DNA from: Sphingomonas sp. Leaf208
GTDB taxonomy: Bacteria; Pseudomonadota; Alphaproteobacteria; Sphingomonadales; Sphingomonadaceae
DNA length: 64,000 nucleotides
Assembly: GCF_001421415.1 (NCBI RefSeq)
Contig: NZ_LMKH01000012.1
Coordinates: 124,001 to 188,000 of the forward strand
Reading direction: 5' to 3'
Below, piece by piece: positions 16,494-58,616 of the stretch; the first letter of the stretch is position 1; each line of letters opens with the position of its first letter. The notes below the pieces were generated by a model. It worked only from the letters and a program-made list of their open reading frames with translations. It made no database searches and was not told the DNA's origin. The translations under genes and the position numbers were made by a program.

Positions 16494-17507
16494 TCAACCG
16501 CCGCGCAGCAGGCGCATCACCAGCGTTCGGATACGCCCGTAAGTCTCCTTCGACGCGCCGAGCACGCCGTGGCGTTCGGGCGGGAGGAATGCGAGCGGGT
16601 GGCCGTCGGGGCGGAACACGTAATGATCGAACCACGCGCGCCACGCTGCGCGCTCGGCCGGCGGGCGTTCGGCGATCGTCAGCAGCGATAGCAGCATCGC
16701 GGTGTAGGGCTGGTCCGGGCCTGCGCTGAACCCGTCCCACCAGAAATTGACCAGGACGTTGACGTCGCCGACAGCCTCGACCTGATGCCACCAGAGTTTG
16801 GGCACGTAGAGCGCGTCGCCGGGCTCCAGCTCGACCACCAGTGCGCGGTCGCGGGCGTTCTCGAAGCGGGGGAAGCGCGGGTCGCCGGGCTCGCTGCCGA
16901 CCGCGAGGCTGATCGGCTGGCCGGCGAGCGTGTGGTCGATCGGTCCGACATACAGGTCGCGGATCGCGTCGGGCGGGAACAGCGTGAAGCGCCGCCGGCC
17001 CGCCGCGACGCACGCGACATTGTCCATCGTGTCGTAATGGCAGGCGACCGTCGAGGCGTGGCCGACCCAGAACCGGGGGCGCACCGCGGGCGGTACGAAC
17101 GGCAGGCGAGTGGCCTCCTCGATACCGGGGAAATACGTCTCCGCGGTCATCGACCCCATGTACATGCTGGTCCGGCCGGGGTCCGCCGCGCTGTCTAGGA
17201 TTCGCGTCAGCGCCTCGCCGAACGGCACCGAACTGCGTTCGAAATTGAACCCGGCGAGCGTCGCGTCGTAATTATACCGCGCGCCGATCTCGGGCTTGCC
17301 GACGAACACCTCCGCGAGCTTGCCGCTATCGAAGCGGCGAAGCTGCGCCACCACGCCGTCCAGCGCCGCACCCGGCGTCGTCGCGCCCGACAGCATCGGC
17401 CAATCCCGCGCCGCACCGCGCAGCACCGCGGGCTCGCAGCGCGCCATCACCTCGGCCTGGAAAGTGTCCGGGTCGCGCAACGCGTCGGCGGGCGGCTCGT
17501 GCAGCAT
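16494..17507 (-). CDS. Cupin-like (JmjC-type) protein of the SapC-halogenase cluster
   Basis: This 337-residue soluble protein belongs to the Cupin_8/JmjC-like group, which includes Fe(II)/2-oxoglutarate-dependent hydroxylases. The proximal metal motif HYDTMDNVACVAAGRRRF (H..D) is followed by FTLFPPD and GDALYVPKLWWHQVEA, which supplies the distal His. Its substrate is unknown. Related genes lie beside SapC, tryptophan-halogenase and TonB-receptor genes in sphingomonads and caulobacters. The start overlaps the SapC stop (TGATG), so the two are co-translated, divergently from TonB receptor 1. Confidence 0.85.
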   Translation of the reverse strand: MLHEPPADALRDPDTFQAEVMARCEPAVLRGAARDWPMLSGATTPGAALDGVVAQLRRFDSGKLAEVFVGKPEIGARYNYDATLAGFNFERSSVPFGEALTRILDSAADPGRTSMYMGSMTAETYFPGIEEATRLPFVPPAVRPRFWVGHASTVACHYDTMDNVACVAAGRRRFTLFPPDAIRDLYVGPIDHTLAGQPISLAVGSEPGDPRFPRFENARDRALVVELEPGDALYVPKLWWHQVEAVGDVNVLVNFWWDGFSAGPDQPYTAMLLSLLTIAERPPAERAAWRAWFDHYVFRPDGHPLAFLPPERHGVLGASKETYGRIRTLVMRLLRGG

Positions 17508-18190
17508 CAGCCGATGTCCGCCAGCCGGTTGTTGCGGATCCGGCCGAGCGTCCGCAGATGGCGGATCGACCCGGCCTGCGCATAGGCGAGTTGCAGGTCG
17601 CCGCGGCGAAACAGGTCGAGCACCGCGGCATCGGGCAATGCGTGCAGCGCGTCGAGGCTGATCGTGTAGAGCCCTTCGAGCGTCAAATGTTCGCCGTCGT
17701 CGAAGCTCATCGTCACGTCGATCGGCTCGAGCAGGCGATGCGCGAGGAAACGCTCGATCAGCGCGTCGGTCTCGGGGATGCCCGACTGAAGGACGTGCAG
17801 CGCCTGCTGGATGCGCTTGAGTGGTAGCGCTGCCTCAGCGTTCATGTCGAACAAAAGCTGGCCGTCTGGCGCCGCAAAGACACCGTGTTCGCGGTCGACG
17901 ACCAGTTGCCCGTCGGTGATGTAGAAGCCCTGGCGTTCGAGGTCGGCGGGTCGGTAGTCGGGCAACGCCCCCTTGACCGCCATCAGGTTGCGGCCCGGCT
18001 CCAGGCCCATCACGACGCCTGCATAGAAGGCGCCGGTTTCCGGGTGTTTCGTGAACAAAATCGCATAATACGGAGCGGCCTGGAGAAATTCGTCTGCGAC
18101 GATCTGCGCGAATTGCCGCTCTCCGTCATGCGCGCGCGATACGCGCAACGCCGCGTGCTGCGCATGGCTCAGCATCTCCCAGATCGGCAT
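17507..18190 (-). CDS. SapC family protein
   Basis: This 227-residue soluble protein begins MPIWEMLSHAQHAALRVS and contains FAQIVADEFLQAAPYYAILFTKHP in line with the SapC family. That family was named from S-layer-associated genes but has no established function. The start at 18190 has a GGAGAGAG ribosome-binding site; the open frame upstream is not supported. It has no signal peptide. It is first in a two-gene leftward unit with the cupin-like gene and faces TonB receptor 1 across a 239-bp control region. Co-occurrence with receptors and flavin halogenases suggests a role in glycan uptake or envelope modification, which is inference only. Confidence 0.85.
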   Translation of the reverse strand: MPIWEMLSHAQHAALRVSRAHDGERQFAQIVADEFLQAAPYYAILFTKHPETGAFYAGVVMGLEPGRNLMAVKGALPDYRPADLERQGFYITDGQLVVDREHGVFAAPDGQLLFDMNAEAALPLKRIQQALHVLQSGIPETDALIERFLAHRLLEPIDVTMSFDDGEHLTLEGLYTISLDALHALPDAAVLDLFRRGDLQLAYAQAGSIRHLRTLGRIRNNRLADIG

Positions 18191-18303
18191 CCGTCTCTCT
18201 CCGTACAGTCTTCTTGCCCGAGAGATCGCACATGGCGCCCCGGTTGCAAAGCCTCGCCGCGACCACTCATACAAAAGCTTGCATTGATTGTTAGCCTGAC
18301 TAT

Positions 18304-18317
18304 TGTGAGCGCTACCG
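18304..18317. promoter_or_regulatory. LacI-type operator in the SapC/TonB-receptor divergent promoter
   Basis: TGTGAGCGCTACCG is an imperfect palindrome centred on AGCGCT, placed between the divergent SapC and TonB receptor 1 genes. Closely related palindromes lie in front of three other transcription units of this locus (41567, 45937, 58822), so it is probably a site for a shared LacI-family repressor. Confidence 0.6.
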
Positions 18318-18429
18318 TAGATGATCGAGACGGTGCGGAAACGCGTATGATTCGATCATCCAAGTAACTTTGTCGTGAACGCCTCTCACAAGAAGGGCGG
18401 TGCGGCGCCGCATGAGGGGATGTTTGACC

Positions 18430-21400
18430 GTGACCACCACTACGCGCGCTTTCGGCTTTCGAGGACTGGCCCACCCATCGAGCGCACTCGCCTGCGCGAC
18501 CAGCGTATTGGCGATGATGTGGTCGATCCCGGCAATGGCGCAGGATCAGGGCAATCTTCAGAACAGCACGACCACGCAGCCGGCCGCGCCGCAGCCAGCC
18601 GTGCCGACGACCGCGAACACCACGACCGCGTCGGAAGCCGGACAGCCGCAGGACGCAGCGACCGCGCCAGACGTGTCGCAGGGTAACACGGTGCAGGGCG
18701 GTACAGCGCAGAGCGACGACATCATCGTCACCGGCCTGCGCGGATCGCTCCAGCGCAACCTCGACCTGAAGCGCACGTCGTCGGGCGTCGTCGATGTCAT
18801 CTCGGCCGAGGACATCGGCAAGTTCCCGGATTCCAACGTGGCGGCGTCGCTGCAGCGCCTGCCAGGCGTATCGATCCAACGTTCGGGTTCGCGCGGCGAA
18901 CCGACCGGCATCACGGTCCGCGGCTTCGGCGGCGATTTCAACACGACGCTGTATGATGGCCGCCGCATCTCGACCGCAACCGGCAACCGCCAGATCGACT
19001 TCAGCACCGTCGGCGTCGATTTCATCGGCCAGTTGAGCGTTTTCAAGACGCCGGACGTGACGGTCGCATCGAGTTCGATCGGCGCGACTGTGGATATCGC
19101 GTTCCCCAAGCCGTTCGACCATCCCGGTTTCCGCCTTGCCGCCACCGGATCGGGAGCGATCCAGGACCGTGCAGGCAAGATCGTGCCGACCGCCGGCCTG
19201 CTCATCAGCAGCACGAACAATGACGAGACGTTCGGCGTACTGGCCGACGCGATCTACACGCGCCGCGATACCGAGACCAATCGCGTCTACGTATCGGGTT
19301 GGCCGGGCGGCAATTTCGCGCCGTGCCAGCTGACCGGTAACGCCGGGGCCGCAAACTGTGCGCCAACCAGCGATCCGAAGTCGGCAAACTACGCCAATCC
19401 CAACAACCGCCAGAACCTGCCCGGCTGGTTCCCGCAGCAATATGGCGCCGAGCAACAGCGCGTGAAGGATGAGCGCGTCGATGCACGCGTCGCATTCCAA
19501 TATCATCCGACCGACGACCTGATGGTCACGCTGGACAACAACTTCTCGCGCCAGACCATCAACCAGGACAATTACGCGTTCGGCGTGTGGTTCAGCCAGG
19601 GCGATCTGCGCAACGTCACGGTCGACAAGAACGGCACCGCGGTCGACTTCACGCAGGCCGGCAGCCCGACCGATTTCACGGCGGCGGAAAACAAGCAGAT
19701 CCTGCAGACCAACCAGACCGGCCTGAACGTCAAGTACGACGCTACCGAACATCTGACGTTCGAAGCTGACGGCTCGTATGCGAAAAGCTGGCTCAATCCC
19801 GGCAACGTCATCGGTAGCAAGAATGGCGACATCGGGTACGGCAATGCTCTGGGTAACGTTCTGCGCTTCAAGGTCGACGGCAAGAGCAGCGACGCCTTCC
19901 CGACGATCAGCAACTTCGGTCCTGCGGGCGATGGCGCACGCTGGGCCGATCAGTCGGTGATCGGTACGCACGTCACGGTCAACCAGACGCAGCACAATAC
20001 CGATGAACTCGCCCAGTTCCGCGGCAACGCCACCTGGAAGCAGGACAATTTGACGCTCAAGGCCGGTGGCCAATATTATCAGGACACGTTCAACTTCCGC
20101 AACCAGAGCACGTTCACCAACAACTTCTGGCAGGCCTATGCCGGTTATGGCGGCCCATCGGGGCGGGCGACGGGCATCTCGCCAGTGCCCGCGAACATCT
20201 ACCAGGGCTCGGTCAGCCTCGACAACTTCATTCCCGGTTTCAACGGCAGCCTGCCGCCGTCGGTGTTCGTGTTCAGCCCGACCGCATATCAGAACTACCT
20301 GACGAGCCTGGGCAACCCGTACGCGAAGAACATCCCGGGCTTCAATTATCCGAGCCCGACGAGCGGCGATGGACTACTAGGCTTCCGCGGGAATTTCGAC
20401 GAAGCGGTCGATCCGGGCAGCGTGCTGAACGTGCGCGAGCGGACCTGGTCGCTCTACTTCAGCGCGAACTTCAAGGCGGACGTCGGCGGCATGCCGTTCA
20501 CGATGAACGCAGGCGTCCGCAACGAAACGACGAACCTGCGCGCGACTGGCCAAGGTCGCCTGCCGACCTCGATCACGACGAGCACCGCCGATCCGTCGTT
20601 GCTCGGCATCCCGACCTACACCGCGATCGTGCCGAACACGACCAACAGCTCGTATTCCTACCTGTTGCCCAGCCTTGATGCGAAGCTGGAAATCACCAAC
20701 ACGCTGCTGGTGCGCTTCGACGCGTCACGTACGCTGACCCGTCCGAGCCTCAGCGTGCTCAACCCGGTGCTGAACGTCGGCAACGGCCAGCGCGTCGGCG
20801 CCCTGACGGCCAGCGGCGGCAACCCGAATTTGAAACCGTACCTGGCGGACAATTTCGACATCGCCGCCGAATGGTATTATCAGCGCAACTCGTATTTGTC
20901 GGTCGACTTCTTCCTGAAGAACGTCAGCAACTTCATCATCGGCGGCGTGACGCGGCAGTCGATCAACGGGCTGATCGATCCGACGACGGGCATTCTGGCG
21001 AGCTTCGCCGTATCGCAGCAGGTCAACGGACCCAACGCGACCGTCCGCGGTGTCGAACTGGCGTGGCAGCAGGTGTTCGGCAACTCGGGCTTCGGGTTCC
21101 AGGCCAACGCAACCTTCGTCAACACCAACCGGCCCTACGACGACAAGAACATCTCGCAGACCGGCTTCGCGGTCACCGGCCTGGCAAATTCGGCGAACTT
21201 CGTCGGCTTCTATGACAAGGGTGGGTTCCAGTTCCGCACCGCTCTCAACTGGCGCGACAAGTATCTGCTTCAGTTCGGCCAGAACCAGAACACCGGCGCC
21301 TTCGGGTCGGAGCCGACCTTCGTCGACCAGAGCTTCCAGGTCGATCTGTCGACGAGCTACGACGTCAACAAGCAGTTCAGCGTCTTTGCCGAAGCGTTGA

Positions 21401-21507
21401 ACGTCAACAACAACCAGCAGAGCACGCACGGGCGCTTCGACAATCAGTTGCTCGACGTGTTCGATTACGGCCGCCGCTACACCGCAGGCGTCCGCTTCCA
21501 CTTCTGA
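18430..21507 (+). CDS. TonB-dependent receptor 1 (glycan uptake)
   Basis: This outer-membrane active transporter of about 1025 residues has a signal peptide (LACATSVLAMMWSIPAMAQ). A Gln/Thr-rich linker and a plug domain (DDIIVTGLRGSL and then ISAEDIGKFPDSNVAASLQR) follow. The long beta-barrel ends in an aromatic residue (GVRFHF). It would import oligosaccharides into the periplasm using TonB energy. I placed the start at GTG 18430 (spaced after GGGGATG); GTG 18400 and ATG 18412 are also possible and would lengthen the signal peptide. No SusD-like lipoprotein accompanies it, as usual for proteobacteria. It heads a rightward unit with the halogenase-like gene and glycosidases, although a strong terminator follows it. 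Confidence 0.92.
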   Translation: MTTTTRAFGFRGLAHPSSALACATSVLAMMWSIPAMAQDQGNLQNSTTTQPAAPQPAVPTTANTTTASEAGQPQDAATAPDVSQGNTVQGGTAQSDDIIVTGLRGSLQRNLDLKRTSSGVVDVISAEDIGKFPDSNVAASLQRLPGVSIQRSGSRGEPTGITVRGFGGDFNTTLYDGRRISTATGNRQIDFSTVGVDFIGQLSVFKTPDVTVASSSIGATVDIAFPKPFDHPGFRLAATGSGAIQDRAGKIVPTAGLLISSTNNDETFGVLADAIYTRRDTETNRVYVSGWPGGNFAPCQLTGNAGAANCAPTSDPKSANYANPNNRQNLPGWFPQQYGAEQQRVKDERVDARVAFQYHPTDDLMVTLDNNFSRQTINQDNYAFGVWFSQGDLRNVTVDKNGTAVDFTQAGSPTDFTAAENKQILQTNQTGLNVKYDATEHLTFEADGSYAKSWLNPGNVIGSKNGDIGYGNALGNVLRFKVDGKSSDAFPTISNFGPAGDGARWADQSVIGTHVTVNQTQHNTDELAQFRGNATWKQDNLTLKAGGQYYQDTFNFRNQSTFTNNFWQAYAGYGGPSGRATGISPVPANIYQGSVSLDNFIPGFNGSLPPSVFVFSPTAYQNYLTSLGNPYAKNIPGFNYPSPTSGDGLLGFRGNFDEAVDPGSVLNVRERTWSLYFSANFKADVGGMPFTMNAGVRNETTNLRATGQGRLPTSITTSTADPSLLGIPTYTAIVPNTTNSSYSYLLPSLDAKLEITNTLLVRFDASRTLTRPSLSVLNPVLNVGNGQRVGALTASGGNPNLKPYLADNFDIAAEWYYQRNSYLSVDFFLKNVSNFIIGGVTRQSINGLIDPTTGILASFAVSQQVNGPNATVRGVELAWQQVFGNSGFGFQANATFVNTNRPYDDKNISQTGFAVTGLANSANFVGFYDKGGFQFRTALNWRDKYLLQFGQNQNTGAFGSEPTFVDQSFQVDLSTSYDVNKQFSVFAEALNVNNNQQSTHGRFDNQLLDVFDYGRRYTAGVRFHF

Positions 21508-21520
21508 TCCCCCTCCCACT

Positions 21521-21555
21521 GGCGGAGCACGACCTGTTCGTGCTCCGCCTTTTTT
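21521..21555 (+). terminator. Intrinsic terminator after TonB receptor 1
   Basis: A perfect 12-bp stem (21521-21532 with 21538-21549), a 5-base loop and six T residues make a classical Rho-independent terminator 14 bp after the receptor stop. It probably attenuates rather than separates expression, because the halogenase-like gene starts only 16 bp later with no room for a separate promoter outside the hairpin. Confidence 0.9.
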
Positions 21556-21570
21556 CGATTACGCTGCACC

Positions 21571-23112
21571 ATGCACGAAATTCAGAACATCGTTATCGTC
21601 GGCGGCGGCACCGCAGGGTGGCTGACCGCGGGCGTGATCGCGGCCAAGCACCAGGCGCGGCGCCAGCACGGCTTCACCGTCACTTTGGTCGAGTCGCCCA
21701 ACGTGCCGACGATCGGTGTTGGCGAAGGGACGTGGCCTACGCTGCGTTCGACGCTCAAGAAGATGGGCGTGTCGGAGACCGAGCTGTTCCGGCAATGCGA
21801 CGCGTCGTTCAAGCAGGGCGCCCGGTTCAATCGCTGGACCACCGGTGCGCCGGACGACGGCTATTACCACCCGCTGATGCTGCCGCAGCATTTCGGGCAG
21901 GTGAACCTCGCACCGCATTGGCTAGCGGACGAGGGCAGCGCGACGTTCTGCGACACGGTCACACCGCAGGGCCGGATCTGCGACGAAGGGCTCGGCCCTA
22001 AGACGATCGCGACGCCCGAATATGACGGCCACGCGAACTACGCCTATCACCTCGACGCGGGCAAATTCTCGCATTTCCTCCAGCGGCATTGCTGCGACAC
22101 GCTCGGCGTCCGCCATGTGAAGGCCGACGTTACCGAGGTGCATCTCGACGAGAGCGGCGACATCGCCAGCCTCGATACCGAACAGGGCGTTTCGATCGCG
22201 GGCGACCTGTTCATCGACTGCACCGGGTTTGCCGCACTGCTGATCGGTGGCGCGATGAAGGTGCCGTTCCGCAGTTGCACCGACATATTGTTCTGCGACA
22301 CCGCGCTGGCGATGCAGGTGCCCTATGACGTGCCCGACGCGCCGATTGCGAGCCACACGATCTCGACCGCGCAGTCGGCCGGCTGGATCTGGGACATCGG
22401 CCTGCCGACGCGGCGCGGAGTCGGCCATGTCTTCTCCAGCAGCCACATCAGCGCGGACGCCGCCGAGCAGGAATTGCGCGACTATATCGGCCCCGCCGCG
22501 CGCGACCTGACCGCGCGCCGGCTGACGATCCGTGCCGGCCACCGCGAGCAATTCTGGGTGCGCAACTGCGTCGCGGTCGGGCTCGCCGCGGGCTTCCTCG
22601 AACCGCTGGAGGCCTCCGCGATCGTCCTGATCGAGCTGTCGGCGAAGATGATCGCCGAGCAGATGCCCGCCTGTCGCGAAGTGATGGACGTCGTCGCGCA
22701 CCGCTTCAACGACACGGCGCATTATCGCTGGGGCCGGATCATCGACTTCCTCAAGCTGCATTATGCGCTGACCAAGCGGACCGACACCGCGTTCTGGCGC
22801 GACAATGTCCGGCCGGAGTCGATCCCCGATCGGCTTTCGGGCCTGATAGAGCTGTGGCGGTTCCAGTCGCCTTGGGTCTATGACGAATTCGATCGCGCCG
22901 AGGAGGTCTTCCCGTCGGCGAGCTATCAATATGTGCTGTACGGCATGGGCGCGCGGACCGCGGTGATGCCGGGGTCGATCGACGACGATGTCGCGCTGGC
23001 TCGGCGCGCGCGGCACGACAATCAGGTGCAGACGCAGCGGCTGGTGAGCAGCCTGCCCGGCCACCGCGATCTCATCGACCGTATCAAGCGCCACGGCCTC
23101 CAGCCGATCTAG
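21571..23112 (+). CDS. Flavin-dependent tryptophan-halogenase-like protein
   Basis: This 513-residue FADH2-dependent halogenase family member has the nucleotide-binding GGGTAGW near the N terminus and the WIWDIGL motif (the family WxWxI signature). A lysine, K81 in ASFKQGARF, aligns with catalytic K79 of PrnA, and a glutamate, E347 in FLEPLEAS, sits at the place of PrnA E346. It therefore looks catalytically competent. Whether it halogenates free tryptophan is doubtful: members beside TonB receptors are widespread in sphingomonads and caulobacters, have no biosynthetic cluster, and their substrate is unknown. It lies 63 bp after TonB receptor 1, before a sialate-esterase-like gene. Confidence 0.88.
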   Translation: MHEIQNIVIVGGGTAGWLTAGVIAAKHQARRQHGFTVTLVESPNVPTIGVGEGTWPTLRSTLKKMGVSETELFRQCDASFKQGARFNRWTTGAPDDGYYHPLMLPQHFGQVNLAPHWLADEGSATFCDTVTPQGRICDEGLGPKTIATPEYDGHANYAYHLDAGKFSHFLQRHCCDTLGVRHVKADVTEVHLDESGDIASLDTEQGVSIAGDLFIDCTGFAALLIGGAMKVPFRSCTDILFCDTALAMQVPYDVPDAPIASHTISTAQSAGWIWDIGLPTRRGVGHVFSSSHISADAAEQELRDYIGPAARDLTARRLTIRAGHREQFWVRNCVAVGLAAGFLEPLEASAIVLIELSAKMIAEQMPACREVMDVVAHRFNDTAHYRWGRIIDFLKLHYALTKRTDTAFWRDNVRPESIPDRLSGLIELWRFQSPWVYDEFDRAEEVFPSASYQYVLYGMGARTAVMPGSIDDDVALARRARHDNQVQTQRLVSSLPGHRDLIDRIKRHGLQPI

Positions 23113-23128
23113 CCGACAGGGGAATAGT

Positions 23129-25081
23129 ATGCGGACCGTCACAGCGTGCCTGGCCATCGGCGCGATCCTAACCATCGGCGCGACCGCCGCGTCGGCGGCC
23201 CCGCGCCTCGACGGCGTGATGGGCGATCACGCGGTGATCCAGCGCGGGCAGCCGATCGTCCTGACCGGACAGGCCGCAGCCGGCGAAACCGTGATGATCA
23301 CGCTGGCCGGGCGCAGCGTCACCGCCAAGGCTGCGCGCGACGGCAGCTTTTCGGCGAGCCTGCCCGCCCTCCCCGCCGGCGGGCCGTACGACCTGACGAT
23401 CGCCGCTCCCAGCGGTGCGGCGGTCCTGCGCGATATCCTGGTCGGCGACGTGTTCCTGTGTTCGGGCCAGAGCAACATGGAACTGCGCGTCGAGCAGGGA
23501 CAGGGCCTGTTTCCGGACGCGCACCCGGAAGTCGACGACAAGCTCCGCCTGCTGACGATCGCCAAGGTCTCCGCCGCCGCACCGGTCGCGCGGTTTGCCG
23601 AACAGCCGCGCTGGACGGTGTCCGGCCCGACCACGGCACCCAGCTTCTCGGCCGCGTGTTTCTACATGGTCCAGGCGCTGCGCCGGACGTCGGGCGTGCC
23701 GATCGGCGCGGTGCATTCGAGCTGGGGCGGGTCGCGGATCAGCGCGTGGATGAGCGATCCTGCGCTGCGGCAGGCCGGGCTCGGCGCCCCCGCCGACCTG
23801 CTCGCGCTCTATGCCCGCGATCCCGCCGCCGCCAACCGGCAGGCATCGACGATCTGGGAAAGCTGGTGGCGCGACGGCTCGGGCGACGCTGCCGGCCGCG
23901 AACCGTGGCAGCCGGATGCCGCGCTCGACTGGAATCCGGTGCCCGCGATGACCAATTTCGAGACCTGGGGCGTGCCCGCACTCTCGGACTATAACGGCAT
24001 GATCTGGTACCAGCACGAGGTCCAGCTGACCGCCGAACAGGCACGCGGCCCGGCGACGCTGGTGCTGGGCATGGTCGACGACGCGGACCGTACCTGGGTC
24101 AACGGCGTGGGTGTCGGTGGCAGCAGCCTCGCGTCGCAATCGCGGGTCTACGCGCTGCCCGCGGGCAGCCTGAAGGTCGGGCGCAACGTCATCACCGTCA
24201 ACGACGACGACGTCTATGCCTATGGCGGGATGACCGGCCCGGCGGATTCGATGCGGTTGTCGTTTGCCGACGGGACCAGCGTACCGCTCGGCACTGGCTG
24301 GCGCTATGCGATCGCCAAGCGCCTCGCAGGCGCGGCACCGCGCGTGCCGTGGGACGACATCAACGGCGCGGGCACGCTCTACAACGCGATGATCGCGCCG
24401 CTTGGTGCTACGAAGTTCGCCGGCATGGCCTGGTACCAGGGCGAGTCCGACACCGGCATCCCCGGGTACGACCGCCGGATGACCGCGTTGATCGCCGACT
24501 GGCGCCGCCGCTTCGGCACACCCGAGACCGGCTTCGGCATCGTCCAACTCGCCAATTACGGCAGCCCGGCGATCGCGCCAAGCGAGAGCGGCTGGGGCGA
24601 CGTCCGCGATGCGCAGCGGCGCGTGGCGGCGGCGGACCCGCATGCCGGCATCGCCGTCGCGCTAGACCTCGGCGATGCGCTCGACATCCATCCCGGCGAG
24701 AAGCACGAGGTCGGGCAAAGGCTCGCCCGCGTGATGCGCGCCGCGGTGTACGGCGAGAAAATCGCGCCGTCCGGCCCTGCCGTCGCCGATGCGCGGCGCA
24801 CGGCGGATGGCGGCGTCACGGTGCGGTTCAGCGGCGTGACGGGCGCGCTGCATGCCCGCAGTGCCACGCAGGCGATCGGCTTCGAACTGTGCGGCGCCGC
24901 GGTCGGTACCTGCCGCTACGCTCCGGGCAAGGTCGCGGGGTCCGAGGTGACGCTGCGCGGCGATGGCCAACCCGTCACACGCGTCCGCTACGCCTGGGCC
25001 GACGCCCCGGCGACCAACCTAGCCGACGACGCACCGCTGCCCGTCGGCACGTTCGAAGTGCCGGTCCTGCCGGCGCGATAA
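23129..25081 (+). CDS. Secreted sialate O-acetylesterase-like SGNH hydrolase
   Basis: This 650-residue exported esterase has a signal peptide (LTIGATAASAA). The SGNH nucleophile motif is CSGQSNMEL with Ser115. A beta-sandwich insert sits in the middle (residues about 270-400, with WVNGVGVGG), and the catalytic Asp/His motif is DIHPGEKHEVGQRLA (D519, H521). In plant-glycan loci such enzymes usually remove acetyl groups from xylan or pectin rather than from sialic acid. It starts 16 bp after the halogenase-like gene and is followed after 64 bp by GH3, so it is part of the same rightward unit. Confidence 0.88.
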   Translation: MRTVTACLAIGAILTIGATAASAAPRLDGVMGDHAVIQRGQPIVLTGQAAAGETVMITLAGRSVTAKAARDGSFSASLPALPAGGPYDLTIAAPSGAAVLRDILVGDVFLCSGQSNMELRVEQGQGLFPDAHPEVDDKLRLLTIAKVSAAAPVARFAEQPRWTVSGPTTAPSFSAACFYMVQALRRTSGVPIGAVHSSWGGSRISAWMSDPALRQAGLGAPADLLALYARDPAAANRQASTIWESWWRDGSGDAAGREPWQPDAALDWNPVPAMTNFETWGVPALSDYNGMIWYQHEVQLTAEQARGPATLVLGMVDDADRTWVNGVGVGGSSLASQSRVYALPAGSLKVGRNVITVNDDDVYAYGGMTGPADSMRLSFADGTSVPLGTGWRYAIAKRLAGAAPRVPWDDINGAGTLYNAMIAPLGATKFAGMAWYQGESDTGIPGYDRRMTALIADWRRRFGTPETGFGIVQLANYGSPAIAPSESGWGDVRDAQRRVAAADPHAGIAVALDLGDALDIHPGEKHEVGQRLARVMRAAVYGEKIAPSGPAVADARRTADGGVTVRFSGVTGALHARSATQAIGFELCGAAVGTCRYAPGKVAGSEVTLRGDGQPVTRVRYAWADAPATNLADDAPLPVGTFEVPVLPAR

Positions 25082-25145: not shown

Positions 25146-27818
25146 ATGCGCATGACCATGAGGGCGAAAGCCCTGGCGACGGCCGGGCTCGCGCTCGCAT
25201 TCTCCCCGGCGATCGCGCGCGAGCCCGCCGCCGCGCCGAGCCAGCGGACCGCGGCCGATCCCGCGGAGCAGATGGCGCGGACGATGGTGTCGCGGATGAC
25301 GCTCGACGAGAAACTGCCACAGTTGCTCAACGTCGCGCCTGCCATCCCGCGGCTCGGCGTGCCCGCGTATAATTGGTGGACGGAATCGCTGCACGGCGCG
25401 CTCGGGCCGCTTGCGACCACCAACTTCCCCGAGCCGATCGGCCTCGCCGCAAGCTTCGACGCGCCGATCGTCCACGACGTCGCGGGCGCAATCAGCCAGG
25501 AGGTGCGCGGGCTGCATACGCTCGGTCGCGAGACCGGCAGGAACGGGCATATCGGCACCGGGCTCGACACCTGGTCGCCCAACATCAACATCTTCCGCGA
25601 TCCGCGCTGGGGCCGCGGGCAGGAGACCTATGGCGAGGATCCGTTCCTGACCGCGACGATGGGCGTCGCGTTCGTGACCGGGATGCAGGGCCCCAACCCC
25701 GATCGCCCGCAGGTGATCGCCACGCCCAAGCATTTCGCGGTGCACAGCGGGCCCGAGGGCACGCGTCATCAAGCCAACGTCTACATCTCCGCGCACGACC
25801 TGGAGGACACCTACCTCCCCGCCTTCCGCGCGGCTCTCGTCGACGGGCACGCAGGCTCGGTGATGTGCGCGTACAACCGCATCGACGGCCAGCCGGCCTG
25901 CGCCAGCGACCTGTTGCTCAAGGAGCATTTGCGCGGCGCGTGGGGCTTCAAGGGCTATGTAGTGTCCGATTGCGACGCGGTGAAGGACATCGCCGACAAC
26001 CATAAATACGCCCCCGACAGCGCCGCCGCGGTCGCCGCCGCGATGCGCGCGGGCGTCGACAACGAATGCAATGGCGAGACGCTGGGCGATACCGCGGGCC
26101 TGGAGACCCGGTACCGCGAGGCGCTCAGCCGCGACCTGATCACCGAGGCGGACGTCGATCAAAGCCTCGTTCGCCTGTTCACTGCGCGGTATCGTAACGG
26201 TGACCTGCCCGGATTGGCCGGCGCCCCCAAGGCGTTGCCGACCAGCGTGGTCGGTGCCCCCGAGCATCGCCGTCTGGCGCTGGCTGCGGCCGAACGGTCG
26301 ATGGTGCTGCTGAAGAACGACGGAATCCTGCCGCTCAAGCCGGGCGTGAAGCTAGCCGTCATCGGCCCGCTCGGCGATGCCACGCGCGTGCTGCGCGGCA
26401 ATTATTCGTCGCCGCTTTCGGGCGCGCCGGTATCGGTGCTGGAGGGGCTGAAGACCGCGCTCGGTGCAAGCCAGGTCACGCTCGTACCGTTCGGGGAATC
26501 CGTCACGGACGGCGACCGCGTGCCGACGTCCGCGCTGCTCACGCCCGACGGCAAGCCCGGCCTGCTCGCGCGCTACTATAATCCGACCACGCCGATGCCC
26601 GCGCAATACGCCCGCGGCACGCGCGAGAAGCTTGTTGCCGCGGCCAAGTACCAGACGCAGCCGGTAGTGACGCGGATCGAGCCGGACGTCGGCGATCGCA
26701 ACCTCGATCTCGCGCGTGTCACCGACGTCCACCGCACCGAATGGACCGGCTTCCTGGTGGCCCCCGAAAGCGGCACCTACCGCGTTGGCCTGTCGGGATC
26801 GGGCGGTACGTTGACGCTCGACGGCAAGATGATTTCGGACCGGCGCAAGGCGCGCTGGAACGACCTGCCCGGCATGACGACGCTGAAACTCGAGGGCGGC
26901 AGGCGTTATGCGATCCGCGCCGAGGGCAGCGGGATCGACCTGGTGTGGAAGCGCGTGTCGGATGCGCCGTCCGCCGAGCTTCGTCGCGCGGCCGCTGCCG
27001 CCGACGTGCTGGTCGCGGTGGTCGGCCTCACCTCCGACCTCGAAGCCGAGGAAACCGGCGTGACGGTGCCGGGCTTCTCGGGCGGCGACAAGACCACGCT
27101 CGACCTGCCAGCAGACCAGATCGCAATGCTCGAACAGGCCAAGGCCACCGGCAAGCCGATCGTGCTCGTCACGATGAACGGCAGCCCGATCAATCTCGCC
27201 TGGGCAAAGGACAACGCCGCCGCCGTGCTGGAGGCGTGGTATCCGGGCGAGACCGGCGGCACCGCTGCGGCCAACATCCTGACCGGACGCACCAACCCGT
27301 CGGGCCGCCTGCCGCTCACCTTCTATCGCAGCGTCGGCGACCTTCCGTCGTTCGGCGATTACGCGATGAAGGGCCGCACCTATCGCTATTTCGCGGGCAC
27401 GCCGGTCTATCCGTTCGGCCACGGGCTCAGCTACACGAAGTTCGGCTATGCGCCGCTGACCGTCACGCCCGCCCGCGGCGGCGCCGAGAACGGCCTGCGC
27501 GTCACCACGCGGCTGACCAACCAGGGCGATCGACCCGGCGAGGAGGTCGCGCAACTCTATCTCGACTTCCCCGACCGGCCCGGCACGCCGCGGATCGCGT
27601 TGCGCGGGTTCCAGCGCGTCGCACTCCGCCCCGGCGAAGCACGCAGCGTCACCTTCGACCTGTCGCCGCGAGATCTCAGCTCGGTCGCGCTCGACGGAGC
27701 GCGCTCGGTGGCCGCCGGCACCTACCGCGTGACGGTGGGCGCGGGGCAGCCCGGCACGGGCGTCGCCGGGCAGACCGCCAGCTTCACGGCGCGCCAGTCG
27801 GCGGAGCTGCCTAAGTGA
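25146..27818 (+). CDS. GH3 beta-glycosidase with PA14 domain (probable beta-xylosidase)
   Basis: This 890-residue secreted or periplasmic GH3 enzyme has a signal peptide (ALAFSPAIA). The catalytic barrel contains WGRGQETYGEDPFL, CAYNRIDGQPACAS and the nucleophile motif GYVVSDCDAV (Asp275). The SDCD form is typical of the xylosidase/arabinosidase branch. The second alpha/beta domain is interrupted by a PA14-like insert (starting LLARYYNPTTPM, about residues 475-615), and the C terminus is a fibronectin-III-like module. It would release xylose or glucose from the non-reducing ends of oligosaccharides. The following GH27 gene begins inside its stop codon region. Confidence 0.92.
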   Translation: MRMTMRAKALATAGLALAFSPAIAREPAAAPSQRTAADPAEQMARTMVSRMTLDEKLPQLLNVAPAIPRLGVPAYNWWTESLHGALGPLATTNFPEPIGLAASFDAPIVHDVAGAISQEVRGLHTLGRETGRNGHIGTGLDTWSPNINIFRDPRWGRGQETYGEDPFLTATMGVAFVTGMQGPNPDRPQVIATPKHFAVHSGPEGTRHQANVYISAHDLEDTYLPAFRAALVDGHAGSVMCAYNRIDGQPACASDLLLKEHLRGAWGFKGYVVSDCDAVKDIADNHKYAPDSAAAVAAAMRAGVDNECNGETLGDTAGLETRYREALSRDLITEADVDQSLVRLFTARYRNGDLPGLAGAPKALPTSVVGAPEHRRLALAAAERSMVLLKNDGILPLKPGVKLAVIGPLGDATRVLRGNYSSPLSGAPVSVLEGLKTALGASQVTLVPFGESVTDGDRVPTSALLTPDGKPGLLARYYNPTTPMPAQYARGTREKLVAAAKYQTQPVVTRIEPDVGDRNLDLARVTDVHRTEWTGFLVAPESGTYRVGLSGSGGTLTLDGKMISDRRKARWNDLPGMTTLKLEGGRRYAIRAEGSGIDLVWKRVSDAPSAELRRAAAAADVLVAVVGLTSDLEAEETGVTVPGFSGGDKTTLDLPADQIAMLEQAKATGKPIVLVTMNGSPINLAWAKDNAAAVLEAWYPGETGGTAAANILTGRTNPSGRLPLTFYRSVGDLPSFGDYAMKGRTYRYFAGTPVYPFGHGLSYTKFGYAPLTVTPARGGAENGLRVTTRLTNQGDRPGEEVAQLYLDFPDRPGTPRIALRGFQRVALRPGEARSVTFDLSPRDLSSVALDGARSVAAGTYRVTVGAGQPGTGVAGQTASFTARQSAELPK

Positions 27819-29722
27819 GCCGCGTCCGGACACTCGCGACGCTCGGCACCGCGCTGGTTGCGCTCTGCACGCCGATCGCGGCACTGGCGGATCCGCTGAC
27901 CCCGACTGGCAAATGGAGCGCCAACACCGATGGCTCAGCAGCCGTGCCGCCGATGGGGTGGAGTTCGTGGAATGCCTTCAACAGCGACGTCGACGAGGAG
28001 AAGGTGCTCGCCTCGGCGCAGGCGCTGATCGACACCAAATTGCGCGACATCGGCTATCGCTACGTCAATATCGACGATGGCTGGTGGCTGAAGCGTCGCC
28101 AACCCGACGGCCGGCTGCTGATCCGCACCAGCCACTTCCCGTCCGCTGCGACCGGTGCGGACACCAGCTTCCGCCCGTTCACCGATCGGCTCCACGCGAT
28201 GGGCCTCAAGGTCGGCATCTATTCGGACATTGGCCGCAACAGCTGCGGCCAGATCTACACCCCCGATTTCAAGAACCAGCCCGAGGGCAATGTCGCCGAG
28301 CGCGAGGTCGGGCTGTACGGCCATGTCGACCAGGACATCCGGTTGTTCTTCGCCGAATGGAACTTCGATTTCCTGAAGGTCGACGGCTGCGGCGCACGCG
28401 GCCTGCCCGTGGACGCACCGCGCGTGAAGTCCGGCCTGTACCGCGCACTCACGCCACTCGTCGACATGCAGTCGCTTGGTGGAACGGACATCGCCGGTAT
28501 CCGCCGCCTCTACGAACAGGTTCACGCCGCGCTGCACACGCACGCCGGCGACCGCGCGTACGTCTATTCGCTGTGCCTGTGGGGCGCGGGCGACGTGCGC
28601 GCGTGGGGCAAGGACGTCGGCAACACATCGCGCACCAGCGATGACATCCAGCCGGTCTGGCCGCGGATGCTGACCAACCTCGACACCGTCACGCACCGTG
28701 CGCTCTACGCGCATCCGGGATCGTGGAACGACCCCGACATGCTGTTCGTCGGCACCGGCGATTTCGACGCGGCGCACAGCGCGGAGGCACGCTCGCACTT
28801 CGCATTGTGGGCGATGCTCAACGCGCCGCTGATCATCGGCTACGACTTGCGCAAGCTTACGCCGGACCTGCTCGCGATCTTCGGCAACGCGGATATCGTC
28901 GCGCTGAACCAGGATTCGGCGGGCAACCAGGCGGTGCTCGCCTACGACTCGTCGGAGGTGCAGACCTTCGTCAAGACGCTCGCGGACGGTAGCAAGGGTG
29001 TGGCACTGTTCAACCGTACCGCCTCGCCCGCCAAGGCCGTGCTGACCGCCGAGCAGCTCAAGATGCTGCCGACCGCCGACGTGCGCCTGAAGGACCTCTG
29101 GACCAAGAAGGAGCAGAGCTTCCGCAAGGAGATTGCGGTGACGCTGGCGCCGCACGAGACGCTGATCTTCCGCGCGACCGGCACGCGGCGTTTGCCGGGC
29201 GGGCTATACCTTTCGGAGCAGACCGGCAGCGTCAATCCGGCGACCGATGGCGTGGTCGTGCCGCAGCCCGATCCGACGATCTACCAGTCGATCACGCCGT
29301 GGACGGGCACCCGCGGCGGTGGCGAGCACCCGCAATATGGCGGCTGGGGCGGCGCCGAAGCCGACCGCGCGCCATACGGTAAGCTGTTGCGCGTTGCCGG
29401 CACTGACTTCGACACGGGGATCGGCGTGCTCGCAAACTCCCGCCTCGAAGTCCGCAACCAGGGTTACGCGCGGTTCGCCGCCAAGGTCGGCATCAACGAT
29501 TCCGGCCAACCGCGGTCGGGTAAGACGGTGTTCGAGGTATGGGGCGATGGTCGCCTGCTCGCCAAGTCCCGGCCGATTGGGTTCGGCGAGGCTGCGATAC
29601 CGCTGGAGGCGAAAGTGACGGGTGTACGGATCGTCGAACTGGTGGCGCGGGGGAGCGGGGCGGTGGTAAATGCCGGGACGCCGCAACCTGCGATTTGGGC
29701 GGACGCTGCGTTACTTAAATAG
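27815..29722 (+). CDS. GH27 alpha-galactosidase with C-terminal NPCBM-like domain
   Basis: This 635-residue secreted enzyme has a signal peptide (LCTPIAALA). The GH27 barrel begins MGWSSWNAFNSDV. The nucleophile is in FDFLKVDGCG (Asp190), and SWNDPDML contains the acid/base aspartate. The last 150 residues form a jelly-roll of the NPCBM type seen in many alpha-galactosidases. It would remove alpha-linked galactose (or related arabinopyranose) from hemicellulose side chains. The start is GTG, overlapping the GH3 stop by four bases. It is the last gene of the rightward unit and ends before a 30-bp inverted repeat. Confidence 0.92.
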   Translation: MSRVRTLATLGTALVALCTPIAALADPLTPTGKWSANTDGSAAVPPMGWSSWNAFNSDVDEEKVLASAQALIDTKLRDIGYRYVNIDDGWWLKRRQPDGRLLIRTSHFPSAATGADTSFRPFTDRLHAMGLKVGIYSDIGRNSCGQIYTPDFKNQPEGNVAEREVGLYGHVDQDIRLFFAEWNFDFLKVDGCGARGLPVDAPRVKSGLYRALTPLVDMQSLGGTDIAGIRRLYEQVHAALHTHAGDRAYVYSLCLWGAGDVRAWGKDVGNTSRTSDDIQPVWPRMLTNLDTVTHRALYAHPGSWNDPDMLFVGTGDFDAAHSAEARSHFALWAMLNAPLIIGYDLRKLTPDLLAIFGNADIVALNQDSAGNQAVLAYDSSEVQTFVKTLADGSKGVALFNRTASPAKAVLTAEQLKMLPTADVRLKDLWTKKEQSFRKEIAVTLAPHETLIFRATGTRRLPGGLYLSEQTGSVNPATDGVVVPQPDPTIYQSITPWTGTRGGGEHPQYGGWGGAEADRAPYGKLLRVAGTDFDTGIGVLANSRLEVRNQGYARFAAKVGINDSGQPRSGKTVFEVWGDGRLLAKSRPIGFGEAAIPLEAKVTGVRIVELVARGSGAVVNAGTPQPAIWADAALLK

Positions 29723-52162: not shown

Positions 52163-52281
52163 TGATCGCGGCCGCCCACGCGTGTCGCACTATGCCGCGG
52201 TGTATCGATTTCGGCCCGAATCCGCGCCTTCTGGGCCCCAGGACAGAAAATCTCTTATCGTCTCGCGATTGTCACGCGGCT

Positions 52282-55349: not shown

Positions 55350-58300
55350 CTAGAAGGTGCCGCGCAGGCCGACCAGGAACTGACGGCCCGGCTTGTACTG
55401 CGTGAAGGTCGCATTCTCGAACTGGAAGTAAGACCGCAACGTCGCGTTCGTGAAGTTCGCAACATTGACCGTCAGCTGAGGCGCCCCGGCAAGGCCGAAG
55501 ATCTTGTCCAGATCGAACGACGACGAGAAGTCGTAGGTCGTATAGTCCGTACCGAACAATGCCGCTGCCGGGATGCCATTCTGCGCCGCACCGCTGTTCT
55601 GCGAGCCCTCGCGCGAGGTGGTCGACACCCGCAGCATGACCCCGTGCTTTTCGTAATAGCCCGTGATGTTGTAGGTAAACGGCGCCACGCCGAACGCGGT
55701 TGCCGCACCCTTGCTGGTCTGGTCGACGACCGTCGCATTGGCGTTGAAGCCGAACCCGGTGATGCCGATGTTCTTGGTCAGGAAGTCGAGTGGCTGGACC
55801 CACTGGAATTCGAGCCCGTTGATGGTCAGCTTGTCAGCCACGTTGACCTGTGACGTGACCTGGACCTGCGCGGTGCCGGGGCCGCCGCGCGAGTTGATCG
55901 CGATCTGCTGCGTCGGATTCAGCGTGTCGTAGGTGATCCCGTATTGCGACAGGTTCGAGAACGGAACCGTGCTGATCGCGGTGTTCGTGAAGCCCTTGAT
56001 CGACTTGCGGAACGCATTGAAGCTGACCACGCCTTCGCGGCCGGTATAATATTCGAAGCCCAGATCGATGTTCGTCGACATGTACGGCTCGAGCGCCGGG
56101 TTGCCGATCGACGCCTGATCCGCCGATGGCGCGCCGAAGTTCACGCCCGGCAGCTGCGCCGACGGATCGGGACGCGTCATGGTACGCGACCCGGCGACGC
56201 GGACTACCGCATGCTCGCTAACGTCATAGGCGAAGGTCGCTGCGGGCAGCCACTTCGAATAGACGTTGCGCGTCGACACGATGCTGACGAGGTTGGGATA
56301 GCGGCTACCGTCTGGCAACGCGACTCCGGTCGCGGTCGTATTGCGCGGATCAGGCAAAGACACGCGACCCGTGATCGTCTGGATCGTGTTGACGTAGCGC
56401 ACGCCGACGTTGAACCGCAGCATGTTGCCGCCAAGGTCCTGCTCGCCGTTCACCGTGGCGAACGCGGACTTCACAACTTCGCGAATGCCGCCGCCGCTTG
56501 CGCCCGTGGTGGACGCACCGCTTTCCGGCGAATTGTCGTGGTAGAAGTCATAGTTGGTTGCGGCTGCGAACTTCGGCCAGTCGACCGTCACGAAACCGGC
56601 CGGGCCTGGTGTCAGGTAGCTTGGGGCCGCCGAGTTGGGAACGAGCGAGCCACCATAGGTCACCGGGCCGGTCATGCCCGTGGTCGATCCGGTGCCGAAG
56701 CCCGGATAGGTCGGGTAGCCGGCGGGGATCACGCCCGGCGCATTCAGGCCTTCGCACGGCGGCTGCGAATTTGGCGAGGCGACGAACACGCTGGGATTAT
56801 TGCCGCAAACGGCGTTCTGGTAGGCCTGGCTGTTGTCGTTGCTGCTGATCCGGCGCGACACGTCGTCGAACGCGCCGCCGACCTTCAGGTTGAGGGCTGG
56901 CTTGCCCCAGGTCAGGTCGCCGCGCGCGCCCTTGCTCTTGTTGAGCCGGCGTTCGTCGGAGATGTTGACGCGGCTACCGGGATTCCAGCCGAAATTCGCC
57001 GGATCGTTCAGGTCCAGCGCGCTCTGGATCGTCGGGATGCCGCTGCCGTCGTTCGAATAGGTCACGGTGTTGCCGACACCCAGCGGGGTCGTCAGGCCGA
57101 CCGACGGGTTCTCGCGGTGGAAGGTCGAGCGCGCGTAATTGCCCTGCAGGTTCAGCTTGAGCGTTTCGGAGATTTCCCACTCGCCGCCGGGGTTGATGCT
57201 GAAGAGCTTCGTCGTCTCGGTGTACGGGCGGAATTCGTTGAAGAATTGCGCGTTGGCGAACGTCCCGCCGGTGACGACGCAGCCGATCGTGCAGTCCGCC
57301 TTGTCGAACGTCAGGTTGGTCGGGATGATCGCGCCGTTGCGGACGATCCACGCCATGTTCTCGCGCGTCAGGTCGTTCTTCTTGTAGCCGTACAGACCAT
57401 CAACGTAGAAGTGCAGCGTATCGGACGGCTGCCATTCGGCACTGATGATCGCGTTGATACGGTCACGCGGACCGCGAATGCTGGTCGAACGCCCGAGCCG
57501 CGGCAGCAGTGCGTTGTCGATCTGCTGGATCGTCGCACCTGGGTTGTTCGCGAGCAGGAAATCCTGATTAATCACCGTGCCGGCGACCAACCCGGCACCA
57601 GCGCCGGCCGGGACCAACCCGGGGATGGTCCAGTTGCCGCCCCCGGTGCCGTTGCAGCTCGCATTGTTGGCACGGCACTGGGCAGCAAGTGTCTGCGCAG
57701 CGGTTGGCGTGTTCTGAACGCCGTTGGTCGTACCGGCGATGCCGTTGGGCGTCGTCAGCGCTGGATTGGTATAGCCAATCGTCTCAAACCCGCGCGTGTC
57801 GGTGAACAGGCGCTGGGCGGACACGCCTGCGAGGATACCGACCTTGTCACCGCGCCAGCTGCCGATCAGCGAGCCGCGAGCACCGATCCGGTCCTCGGGC
57901 GACTGCTTCGTACCCTGCACGTTATACGCCAGGAACGAGGTCGCGCGATCGAACGGCCGCGCCGAACGAAGGTCGATGTTACCCGCCGCTCCGCCTTCAA
58001 GCAGGTCCGCGGTATAGCTCTTGTTGACGGTCAGCTTGGTGAACAGGTCGGTCGGGAAGAAGCTGAGATCGACCGAGCGATCGGTGCCCTGCGCATCGGT
58101 TGCGCCCGACGACGCCACCGCGATCGTCGCGCCGTTGAGCGTGACGTTCGTGAAGTTCGATCCGAGGCCACGGATCGCGACGTTCGTACCTTCGCCGGTC
58201 ACGTCGCGCGTGATGGTGATGCCGGGGATCCGGTTGAAGGATTCGGCGATGTTGGTGTCGGGGAACTTGCCGATGTCCTCGGCGAAGATCGAATCCGTAA

Positions 58301-58616
58301 AGCCGGTCGCTGCGCGCTTGGCGTTCGTCGACTTGGCGAGGCTCGAACGATAGCCGGTAACGACGATGTCGCCGCTGTCGGCCGCATCGATCGTGCCGGG
58401 AGTCTGGTCGGAGTCAGGCAGGGCCGCGGCTGGCGACGCGGCAGGCGCGGTCGGCCCGGCGGCGGCGGGCGCGGCACCTTGCGACGCCGCGGGTGCAGGG
58501 TCCTGCGTTGGCGGAATGGTCTGCGCCGCCGCAACGGTCGCCGACAGCGCTACCATGGTCGTCGCGCACAAGAGCGCAGCGCGCGTAAGACGAGGGGCCA
58601 TTTTGAAAGGCGTCAT
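55350..58616 (-). CDS. TonB-dependent receptor 2 (glycan uptake)
   Basis: This 1088-residue outer-membrane receptor has a signal peptide (LSATVAAA) and a Pro/Ala-rich stretch. The TonB-box-like region and plug read GDIVVTGYRSSLAKSTNAKR, EDIGKFPDTNIAESFNRIPG and TNVAIRGLGSNFTNVTLNG. The long barrel ends VGLRGTF. The ATG at 58616 follows AAGAGGAT. It is of the same size class as receptor 1, but the two share only general family features, so they probably take different oligosaccharides. Its promoter region has AGCGCT palindromes. A terminator separates it from the GntR gene. Confidence 0.93.
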   Translation of the reverse strand: MTPFKMAPRLTRAALLCATTMVALSATVAAAQTIPPTQDPAPAASQGAAPAAAGPTAPAASPAAALPDSDQTPGTIDAADSGDIVVTGYRSSLAKSTNAKRAATGFTDSIFAEDIGKFPDTNIAESFNRIPGITITRDVTGEGTNVAIRGLGSNFTNVTLNGATIAVASSGATDAQGTDRSVDLSFFPTDLFTKLTVNKSYTADLLEGGAAGNIDLRSARPFDRATSFLAYNVQGTKQSPEDRIGARGSLIGSWRGDKVGILAGVSAQRLFTDTRGFETIGYTNPALTTPNGIAGTTNGVQNTPTAAQTLAAQCRANNASCNGTGGGNWTIPGLVPAGAGAGLVAGTVINQDFLLANNPGATIQQIDNALLPRLGRSTSIRGPRDRINAIISAEWQPSDTLHFYVDGLYGYKKNDLTRENMAWIVRNGAIIPTNLTFDKADCTIGCVVTGGTFANAQFFNEFRPYTETTKLFSINPGGEWEISETLKLNLQGNYARSTFHRENPSVGLTTPLGVGNTVTYSNDGSGIPTIQSALDLNDPANFGWNPGSRVNISDERRLNKSKGARGDLTWGKPALNLKVGGAFDDVSRRISSNDNSQAYQNAVCGNNPSVFVASPNSQPPCEGLNAPGVIPAGYPTYPGFGTGSTTGMTGPVTYGGSLVPNSAAPSYLTPGPAGFVTVDWPKFAAATNYDFYHDNSPESGASTTGASGGGIREVVKSAFATVNGEQDLGGNMLRFNVGVRYVNTIQTITGRVSLPDPRNTTATGVALPDGSRYPNLVSIVSTRNVYSKWLPAATFAYDVSEHAVVRVAGSRTMTRPDPSAQLPGVNFGAPSADQASIGNPALEPYMSTNIDLGFEYYTGREGVVSFNAFRKSIKGFTNTAISTVPFSNLSQYGITYDTLNPTQQIAINSRGGPGTAQVQVTSQVNVADKLTINGLEFQWVQPLDFLTKNIGITGFGFNANATVVDQTSKGAATAFGVAPFTYNITGYYEKHGVMLRVSTTSREGSQNSGAAQNGIPAAALFGTDYTTYDFSSSFDLDKIFGLAGAPQLTVNVANFTNATLRSYFQFENATFTQYKPGRQFLVGLRGTF

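Follow-up and report, generated by a model that had tools for sequence, protein, structure and literature searches.

Carbohydrate utilization (CUT) loci unite a TonB receptor with glycan-degrading enzymes, a sugar-type regulator and an inner-membrane transporter, and among the flavin-dependent halogenases (FDHs), those that act on free tryptophan (PrnA/RebH type) bind the amino and carboxyl groups of their substrate with a C-terminal lid. CUT loci are described from Xanthomonas and Caulobacter, with TonB receptors for plant carbohydrates, and excerpts of PMC1790865 present the receptors and these loci as conserved in aquatic bacteria, including Sphingomonas. MibH and SrpI, from pathways of ribosomally synthesized and posttranslationally modified peptides (RiPPs), are FDHs that act on tryptophan inside a peptide (PMC12615548, in excerpt). 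According to excerpts of PMC5945002, BrvH gave no halogenation of free tryptophan, and its authors likened its open active site to that of the peptide-tryptophan halogenase MibH. The native substrates of BrvH and of three Xanthomonas halogenases are stated to be unknown in the excerpted part of PMC7336383. Here, we describe a locus found in a stretch of 64,000 nucleotides of Sphingomonas sp. Leaf208 (contig NZ_LMKH01000012.1, positions 124,001 to 188,000), referred to below as the window. It carries the genes for a TonB receptor, an FDH, a SapC family protein and a cupin-like protein of the Cupin_8 family. This arrangement, in which an outer-membrane sugar receptor is genetically tied to a halogenase, a putative oxygen-dependent hydroxylase and SapC, is recurrent in Sphingomonas and its relatives, and we regard the existence of a conserved module as almost certain.

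The four genes are organized in two divergent pairs. On the reverse strand lie the Cupin_8 gene (PF13621, 16494 to 17507, Pfam E value 4.7e-59, 200.8 bits), coding for a JmjC/FIH-like putative 2-oxoglutarate (2OG)-Fe(II) protein hydroxylase, and the SapC gene (PF07277, 17507 to 18190, E value 2.5e-45, 155.2 bits against a cut-off of 28.9). The open reading frame (ORF) listed for SapC extends to 18274, but the alignment of orthologues places the likely ATG at about 18190. On the forward strand, the TonB-dependent receptor (18400 to 21507, with the true start perhaps at 18412) was recognized by Pfam and by the curated TIGR01782 TonB-Xanth-Caul model (567.2 bits against a cut-off of 310), its AlphaFold2 model has a pLDDT of 74.7 and a pTM of 0.75, and it is followed by the FDH gene (Trp_halogenase, PF04820, 21571 to 23112, E value 1e-122, 410.7 bits against a cut-off of 21). 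Since the SapC and Cupin_8 genes overlap by one base and the gap between receptor and FDH is 63 bp, each pair is probably cotranscribed. The first-pass annotation, made from the letters of the window, had placed the four genes at these positions, with the K81, E347 and WxWxI positions of the halogenase intact and this gene 63 bp past the first TonB receptor, and both Pfam and a motif check confirmed it: the aligned FDH has GGGTAG at residue 11, K81, WIWDI at 272 to 276 (the WxWxI position) and E347.

The distribution of these families was scored across 200 sampled genomes of the phylum, taking the best seven FDH candidates per genome and considering as strong an FDH above 290 bits and a Cupin_8 above 190 bits. 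SapC was found in 72 genomes, a strong FDH in 16 and a strong Cupin_8 in 10; 15 of the 16 genomes with a strong FDH also carry SapC, the exception being G115. Among the control genomes, that of Caulobacter vibrioides scores for PF04820, SapC, Cupin_8 and TIGR01782, although PF04820 scores as well in controls for which distant relatives alone would be expected. Linkage was counted in 11 genomes, that of the window and ten others with FDH, scoring every FDH candidate. The ten were picked from 15 others with a strong FDH, and the counts therefore describe linkage and not frequency; the expected values correspond to the share of each genome covered by the surroundings of the partner gene. First-look receptor candidates numbered 43 to 84 in five of the ten other genomes, and the best 39 of each were scored; in the window's own genome, it was the best 63 of 67. 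A DUF6445 match in G087 (45 bits), FDH-like proteins below 140 bits, partial or weak Cupin_8 matches below 190 bits and receptors below 310 bits were excluded, and two receptor pieces in G186 were counted as one gene, as were two FDH pieces in the genome of the window. The 11 genomes hold 77 FDHs, 28 SapC, 24 full-length Cupin_8, 13 DUF6445 and, among the candidates scored, 118 TIGR01782 receptors.

In this co-occurrence analysis, which the first-pass annotation had called for, the genes were not found unlinked, as they would be if its reading were wrong. A receptor lies within 6.2 kb of 71 of the 77 FDHs, where 3.87 were expected, and 47 of the 118 receptors scored have an FDH within that distance. 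Full-length Cupin_8 genes are found within 6.2 kb of a receptor in 21 of 24 cases (1.2 expected) and of an FDH in 20 of 24 (0.56 expected), SapC is within 1 kb of a Cupin_8 gene in 12 of 28 (0.06 expected), and DUF6445 is within 6.2 kb of an FDH in 11 of 13 (0.34 expected). In addition, each of the 11 genomes has one SapC that is near neither a receptor nor an FDH, and the twelfth copy distant from receptors (G126:C5) lies 193 bp from an FDH. A same-strand operon of receptor, SapC, Cupin_8 and FDH was found in two paralogous loci of the window's own genome (L027 and L029) and elsewhere, other families included, in L039, L040, L041, L044, L049, L050, L076, L083 and L087. L044 and L049 have an extra FDH, the former with receptor, FDH, SapC, Cupin_8, FDH and DUF6445 in one run.

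The divergent layout of the window is also conserved. When the window SapC was used to scan a genome collection described as covering 84,980 species, a search that reaches no further than close relatives, 27 related loci were recovered, mostly from Sphingomonas, with two from Croceibacterium and one from a record labelled Microvirga. As the set was obtained through SapC, it illustrates conservation of the layout and not its frequency. The receptor and Cupin_8 are on opposite strands, as in the window, in all 27 loci (with Cupin_8 split into two ORFs in L114), an FDH is present in 26 (the exception, L112, stops at the contig end), and SapC is open in 26 (all but L114). The nearest loci, with 97-98% identity to the window SapC, are labelled Sphingomonas faeni, other Sphingomonas and one uncultured bacterium. 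The Microvirga record (L109, JAGSNX010000004.1) is a typical Sphingomonas-type locus with a SapC identity of 66%, by either mislabelling or transfer.

Among solved structures, BrvH (PDB 6frl, Brevundimonas) and Xcc4156 (PDB 6y1w, Xanthomonas) are of the same PF04820 family as the window FDH. However, the latter falls outside their group, matching 6frl with 262 bits and 6y1w with 239 compared with 531 bits for its best match, 2pyx. This "tryptophan halogenase", which we take to be a Shewanella protein from structural genomics, is its closest solved relative and aligns over nearly the full length. An FDH of the linked operon in G186 (L050) has 6y1w as its first PDB match (638 bits) and 6frl as its third (482 bits). 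In phmmer searches, RebH- and PyrH-type matches end near residue 430 of the window FDH and Thal matches reach 502, a comparison made by the extent of the matches. Structure 5uao, presumably MibH, is a weak match (177 bits), and the NCBIfam models of QhpG and GoxB, which are peptide-maturing flavoproteins, gave 39 and 24 bits, far under their cut-offs. Of the parts of RiPP clusters of the MibH/SrpI type, no precursor-peptide gene or RiPP machinery was identified in the locus; neither gene pair leaves space for a precursor (63-bp gap and one-base overlap), small ORFs elsewhere in the window not having been searched for precursors.

The catalytic lysine (K81) is retained in 102 of 110 aligned FDH rows and the glutamate (E347) in 103, counts that take in orthologues and a few genes fetched twice. 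The eight divergent copies without the lysine (L074:9041-10528, L033:9280-10857, L082:7994-9481, L051:7386-8846, L086:8481-10214, L080:10035-11531, L032:14061-15494 and L093:10621-13440) also lack the glutamate in seven cases, and seven of them are within tandem arrays of three or four FDHs near a receptor; from their sequences, they are possible pseudoenzyme partners. The genome of the window (G000) gave 15 PF04820 matches, counted as 14 FDH genes, including four in a row at C23:360972-366743, where one gene accounts for two partial matches.

The facial triad of the Cupin_8 protein (H157 and D159 in HYD157-159, and H241) is intact in the window and invariant in all 51 full-length homologues aligned from the fetched loci, orthologues included (51 of 56 hidden Markov model [HMM] matches, the weak or short ones having been dropped). 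The nearest solved chains are FIH, followed by JMJD7, JMJD5 and C2orf60 (the last presumably TYW5), JmjC hydroxylases that have the HxD...H pattern in common with it, although the alignment is limited to the catalytic core, with an E value of about 1e-16 at best. We thus consider it a putative FIH-like 2OG-Fe(II) protein hydroxylase. DUF6445 (PF20043) has H123-x-D125, H212 and R230 invariant across 12 rows (of which two repeat genes already in the set), HxD...H being the pattern of a 2OG-Fe(II) oxygenase; no PDB relative was found by sequence. Taken with Cupin_8, this pattern means that the module would bring together halogenases and as many as two types of oxygen-dependent hydroxylase. No DUF6445 was found among the searched ORFs of the window locus. 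As for SapC, the family name derives from the S-layer locus of Campylobacter, an origin that would fit an exported surface protein as neighbour. A sequence search with the window protein found no PDB relative, and its AlphaFold2 model (pLDDT 95.7, pTM 0.90) matched no PDB fold by Foldseek (best E value 0.15) or by VIA-align (none at Z of at least 2 among 996 chains), so that the modelled fold is perhaps undescribed and offers no clue to a function.

Both gene pairs of the window share one divergent control region (18191 to 18399), for which orthologous regions were aligned in 22 rows, one from the window and the others from 21 of the 27 related loci. A promoter-like element faces the receptor on the forward strand (18279 to 18306), with TTGCAT at 18279-18284 and TATTGT at 18301-18306 separated by 16 bp; sequence and conservation suggest -35 and -10 boxes, and the CTTGCA/TATTGT pair is kept in most rows. 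The operator-like palindrome reported in this region by the first-pass annotation is indeed there: TGTGAGCGCTACCG (18304 to 18317), which we take to be a LacI-type site, is kept in 21 of 22 rows, the missing one (L116) having been cut short in extraction. It becomes TGTTACCGCTAACT or TGGTAACGTTAACT in distant species, with the LacI-type symmetry retained.

Downstream of the FDH and on the same strand, Pfam identified a SASA-type carbohydrate esterase (23129 to 25081), a glycoside hydrolase family 3 (GH3) glycosidase (25146 to 27818) and a Melibiase_2 alpha-galactosidase-like protein with an NPCBM domain (27815 to 29722), all three being glycan-locus neighbours. Beyond them come GH43, Esterase and GH95 genes, followed by an arabinofuranosidase, further GH43 genes, GH9 and a GntR regulator. 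The neighbours are thus glycosidases and esterases, as had been read from the sequence. Of the features of CUT loci, receptor and glycosidases are present, and the operator-like site is conserved; no inner-membrane transporter or cognate LacI regulator was identified in the scanned part of the window genes. A second receptor of the window (55350-58616) is likewise of the TIGR01782 type (556 bits). Between the two, the segment 47667-52162 has a 746-aa ORF with a weak, sub-cut-off match to a xylose-isomerase-like barrel and a beta-helix protein that weakly matches GH141, with a GntR/FCD regulator then at 52182.

This setting had suggested that the module belongs specifically to a feruloylated plant-glycan locus, a claim that found no support. 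Nineteen neighbour ORFs scanned by FDH loci include GH31, GH13 (four ORFs), GH2, GH3 (three), GH29 and GH97, along with two receptors and unrelated genes (for matches to the Alpha-amylase and fucosidase models, the GH number is our assignment). FDH linkage follows the receptor clade. ORFs shorter than 780 aa, receptors whose last 500 residues were identical and 23 of the 27 orthologues of the window type were left out of a tree of 123 receptors, on which linkage to an FDH requires 15 changes, compared with a mean of 40 and a minimum of 32 in 500 label shuffles. An earlier set of 69 receptors needs 8 changes, where 1000 shuffles averaged 21 and never fell below 15. This dependence on the receptor clade and the variety of glycosidases disfavour a role on feruloyl esters, which may apply at the window locus but is unlikely as a common one; we rejected it as a general specificity because the neighbour enzymes differ between loci.

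If not the sugar, the chemistry of the module may be aimed at the receptor itself. We tentatively propose, at somewhat below even confidence, that the enzymes tailor the exported surface protein encoded next to them or help it to mature, the probable targets being peptide side chains ahead of export. The proposal draws on the linkage to a receptor subfamily, the variety of glycosidases, the FIH-like nature of Cupin_8, the open site of BrvH and its inactivity on free tryptophan, the precedent of MibH and SrpI, and the matches of the window FDH to QhpG and GoxB, far under the cut-offs as they are. A LacI-family regulator of the glycan locus would probably induce receptor and module together. While the receptor is destined for the outer membrane, the FDH, the FIH-like hydroxylase and SapC would stay in the cytosol, as their N-termini, judged by eye and not by a predictor, have no evident signal peptide. 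Side chains of the still unfolded receptor would be halogenated, probably brominated, and hydroxylated, with SapC acting as a substrate-binding or export-side factor. A stricter version, in which cells halogenate and hydroxylate their own outer-membrane glycan receptors before export (at some loci, giant exported proteins) with SapC as dedicated adaptor and one module per receptor, seems unlikely to us. The linkage, gene order, intact catalytic residues, dependence on receptor clade and glycosidase variety are observed, whereas the cytosolic location, the peptide substrate, the receptor as that substrate, the part played by SapC and the control by LacI are inferred. Action on the receptor or an envelope component was one of the options listed in the first-pass annotation, and among these it is the one that the linkage would favour.

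Loci lacking a nearby TIGR01782 receptor bear on this proposal. Six of the 77 FDHs are farther than 6.2 kb from one, and our in-house receptor HMM missed receptors of other types, so that the absence of such types is judged by Pfam scans of the large ORFs. Another TonB receptor is located about 75 bp upstream of the FDH in L035 (G147, outside the 11 genomes), and two lie within 5 kb of the FDH in L030, in the window's own genome. In G131, about 1 kb separates an FDH and DUF6445 (L090:8484-10792) from one uninterrupted DUF11/RTX-type ORF that exceeds 6,500 codons (L090:11749-19501, continued in L254:234-19901), with no TIGR01782 receptor near. In G126 (L046, L253), an ORF of some 900 codons bearing a Calx-beta domain lies about 5 kb downstream of FDH, SapC and DUF6445. 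Stand-alone SapC copies are near RTX-type proteins in L054, L057 and L061, as Pfam confirms for L054 and L061. In L057, SapC adjoins HlyD/GAF, with SecA-like genes near; in L054, a SecA-like gene adjoins SapC, and homologues of the HlyD ORF are found in L054, L056 and L058. SapC is beside a TPS exoprotein in L059 and a non-TIGR01782 receptor in L070. The RTX, HlyD and SecA-like genes near stand-alone SapC, from few genomes, and the giant ORF by the FDH and DUF6445 of G131 add to the case for a surface protein as target. These neighbourhoods suggest, as a lead and not as proof, that an exported surface protein is the common neighbour. At most stand-alone SapC loci, where most neighbours were not scanned, no exported partner was identified. 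The segments L057:2780-9675 and L054:9202-12048, with SapC near an HlyD/GAF fusion, a SecA-like ATPase and an RTX-type protein, look like an unusual export system by gene content.

Several observations weigh against modification of the surface protein. Many genomes have SapC and no strong FDH (57 of 72 in the 200-genome sample), 71 of the 118 receptors scored in the 11 genomes have no FDH within 6.2 kb, and RTX neighbours occur at just 3 of 22 SapC loci without a TIGR01782 receptor (and at 1 of 117 control loci, L090). Two FDH loci (L084 and L091) showed neither a receptor nor a giant exported protein; apart from the FDH, their ORFs of at least 600 residues code for a penicillin-binding protein and an M3 peptidase. 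A scan of receptor columns tied no residue to the module. A loop tryptophan or tyrosine at about residue 580, located where the AlphaFold2 model links two strands by a segment of low confidence, is commoner in FDH-linked receptors (0.72 versus 0.26), but unlinked members of the clade keep it and one FDH-linked clade is without it; we rejected it as the substrate site and do not use it as support, since it tracks the receptor clade and not the FDH. Receptor and FDH distances were weakly correlated in a mirror-tree test of 41 pairs (rho 0.19, null standard deviation 0.06, some permutations being higher), and within genomes the test was not significant (313 of 2000 permutations as high). Besides, a cytosolic enzyme would need to act before Sec export, and such modification of a Sec substrate would be unusual.

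Among the alternatives, the one that survives best, possible if somewhat unlikely, is that the receptor admits a small molecule, aromatic or other (a hydroxycinnamate, an indole, a fragment of lignin or a flavonoid), which the enzymes then detoxify or funnel. Esterases are among the window neighbours, the FDH comes directly after the receptor in the window and several other loci, and relatives of the FDH brominate indole or its derivatives in vitro (PMC5945002 and PMC7336383, in excerpt). However, the indole activity given for BrvH is low (2.5 mU/mg, excerpts of PMC5945002), and the module is also found by starch-, fucose- and other glycan-type enzymes, where aromatic decoration would not be expected. 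The many receptor-adjacent copies (14 FDH genes in the window's own genome) fit a receptor-specific substrate better than a common aromatic.

It is distinctly unlikely that the halogenase-like proteins no longer halogenate and are now flavin monooxygenases or redox sensors tuning the expression or activity of the receptor. The loss of the lysine in 8 of 110 rows, mostly in tandem arrays, would agree with this, but most rows retain lysine and glutamate and the window copy is intact. We find it very unlikely that a free halogenated signal or metabolite is the product of the module and that common regulation alone explains its place in glycan loci. The FDH family is best known from natural-product pathways, and the LacI-type operator-like site is common to both gene pairs; against this, no natural-product genes were identified among the neighbour ORFs scanned, which are part of the total, and the linkage to a receptor subfamily extends across distant families. 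Equally improbable is passive linkage, an old gene set carried along as receptor loci duplicate or transfer without functional coupling, even though plain vertical inheritance of the loci would also produce the dependence on receptor clade and the mirror-tree signal was weak. Distant families keep the genes adjacent despite a varying order (same-strand operons, divergent pairs and tandem FDH arrays), and catalytic residues are conserved in most copies.

The component families are already known, and some sugar-regulon work reportedly lists such genes. Within the Creative Commons-licensed literature of PubMed Central (subscription papers and regulon databases being outside the search), we recognized no paper treating the unit of FDH, SapC, Cupin_8 and TonB receptor; nor did we find there an explanation for the module, which the first-pass annotation had said to have no accepted one. 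The papers on BrvH and Xcc4156 (PMC5945002 and PMC7336383) nowhere use TonB, receptor, SapC or cupin in their main text, and halogenase, SapC and cupin are likewise absent from that of PMC1790865 and of the review of sphingomonad TonB systems (PMC7142613). The linkage narrows the search for the substrates of BrvH/Xcc-type halogenases, as a defined surface protein is found near almost every copy in the genomes examined, often accompanied by one or two 2OG oxygenases and SapC, and the SapC and DUF6445 families gain a working context. If the receptor is indeed the substrate, this would be a new kind of outer-membrane protein modification.

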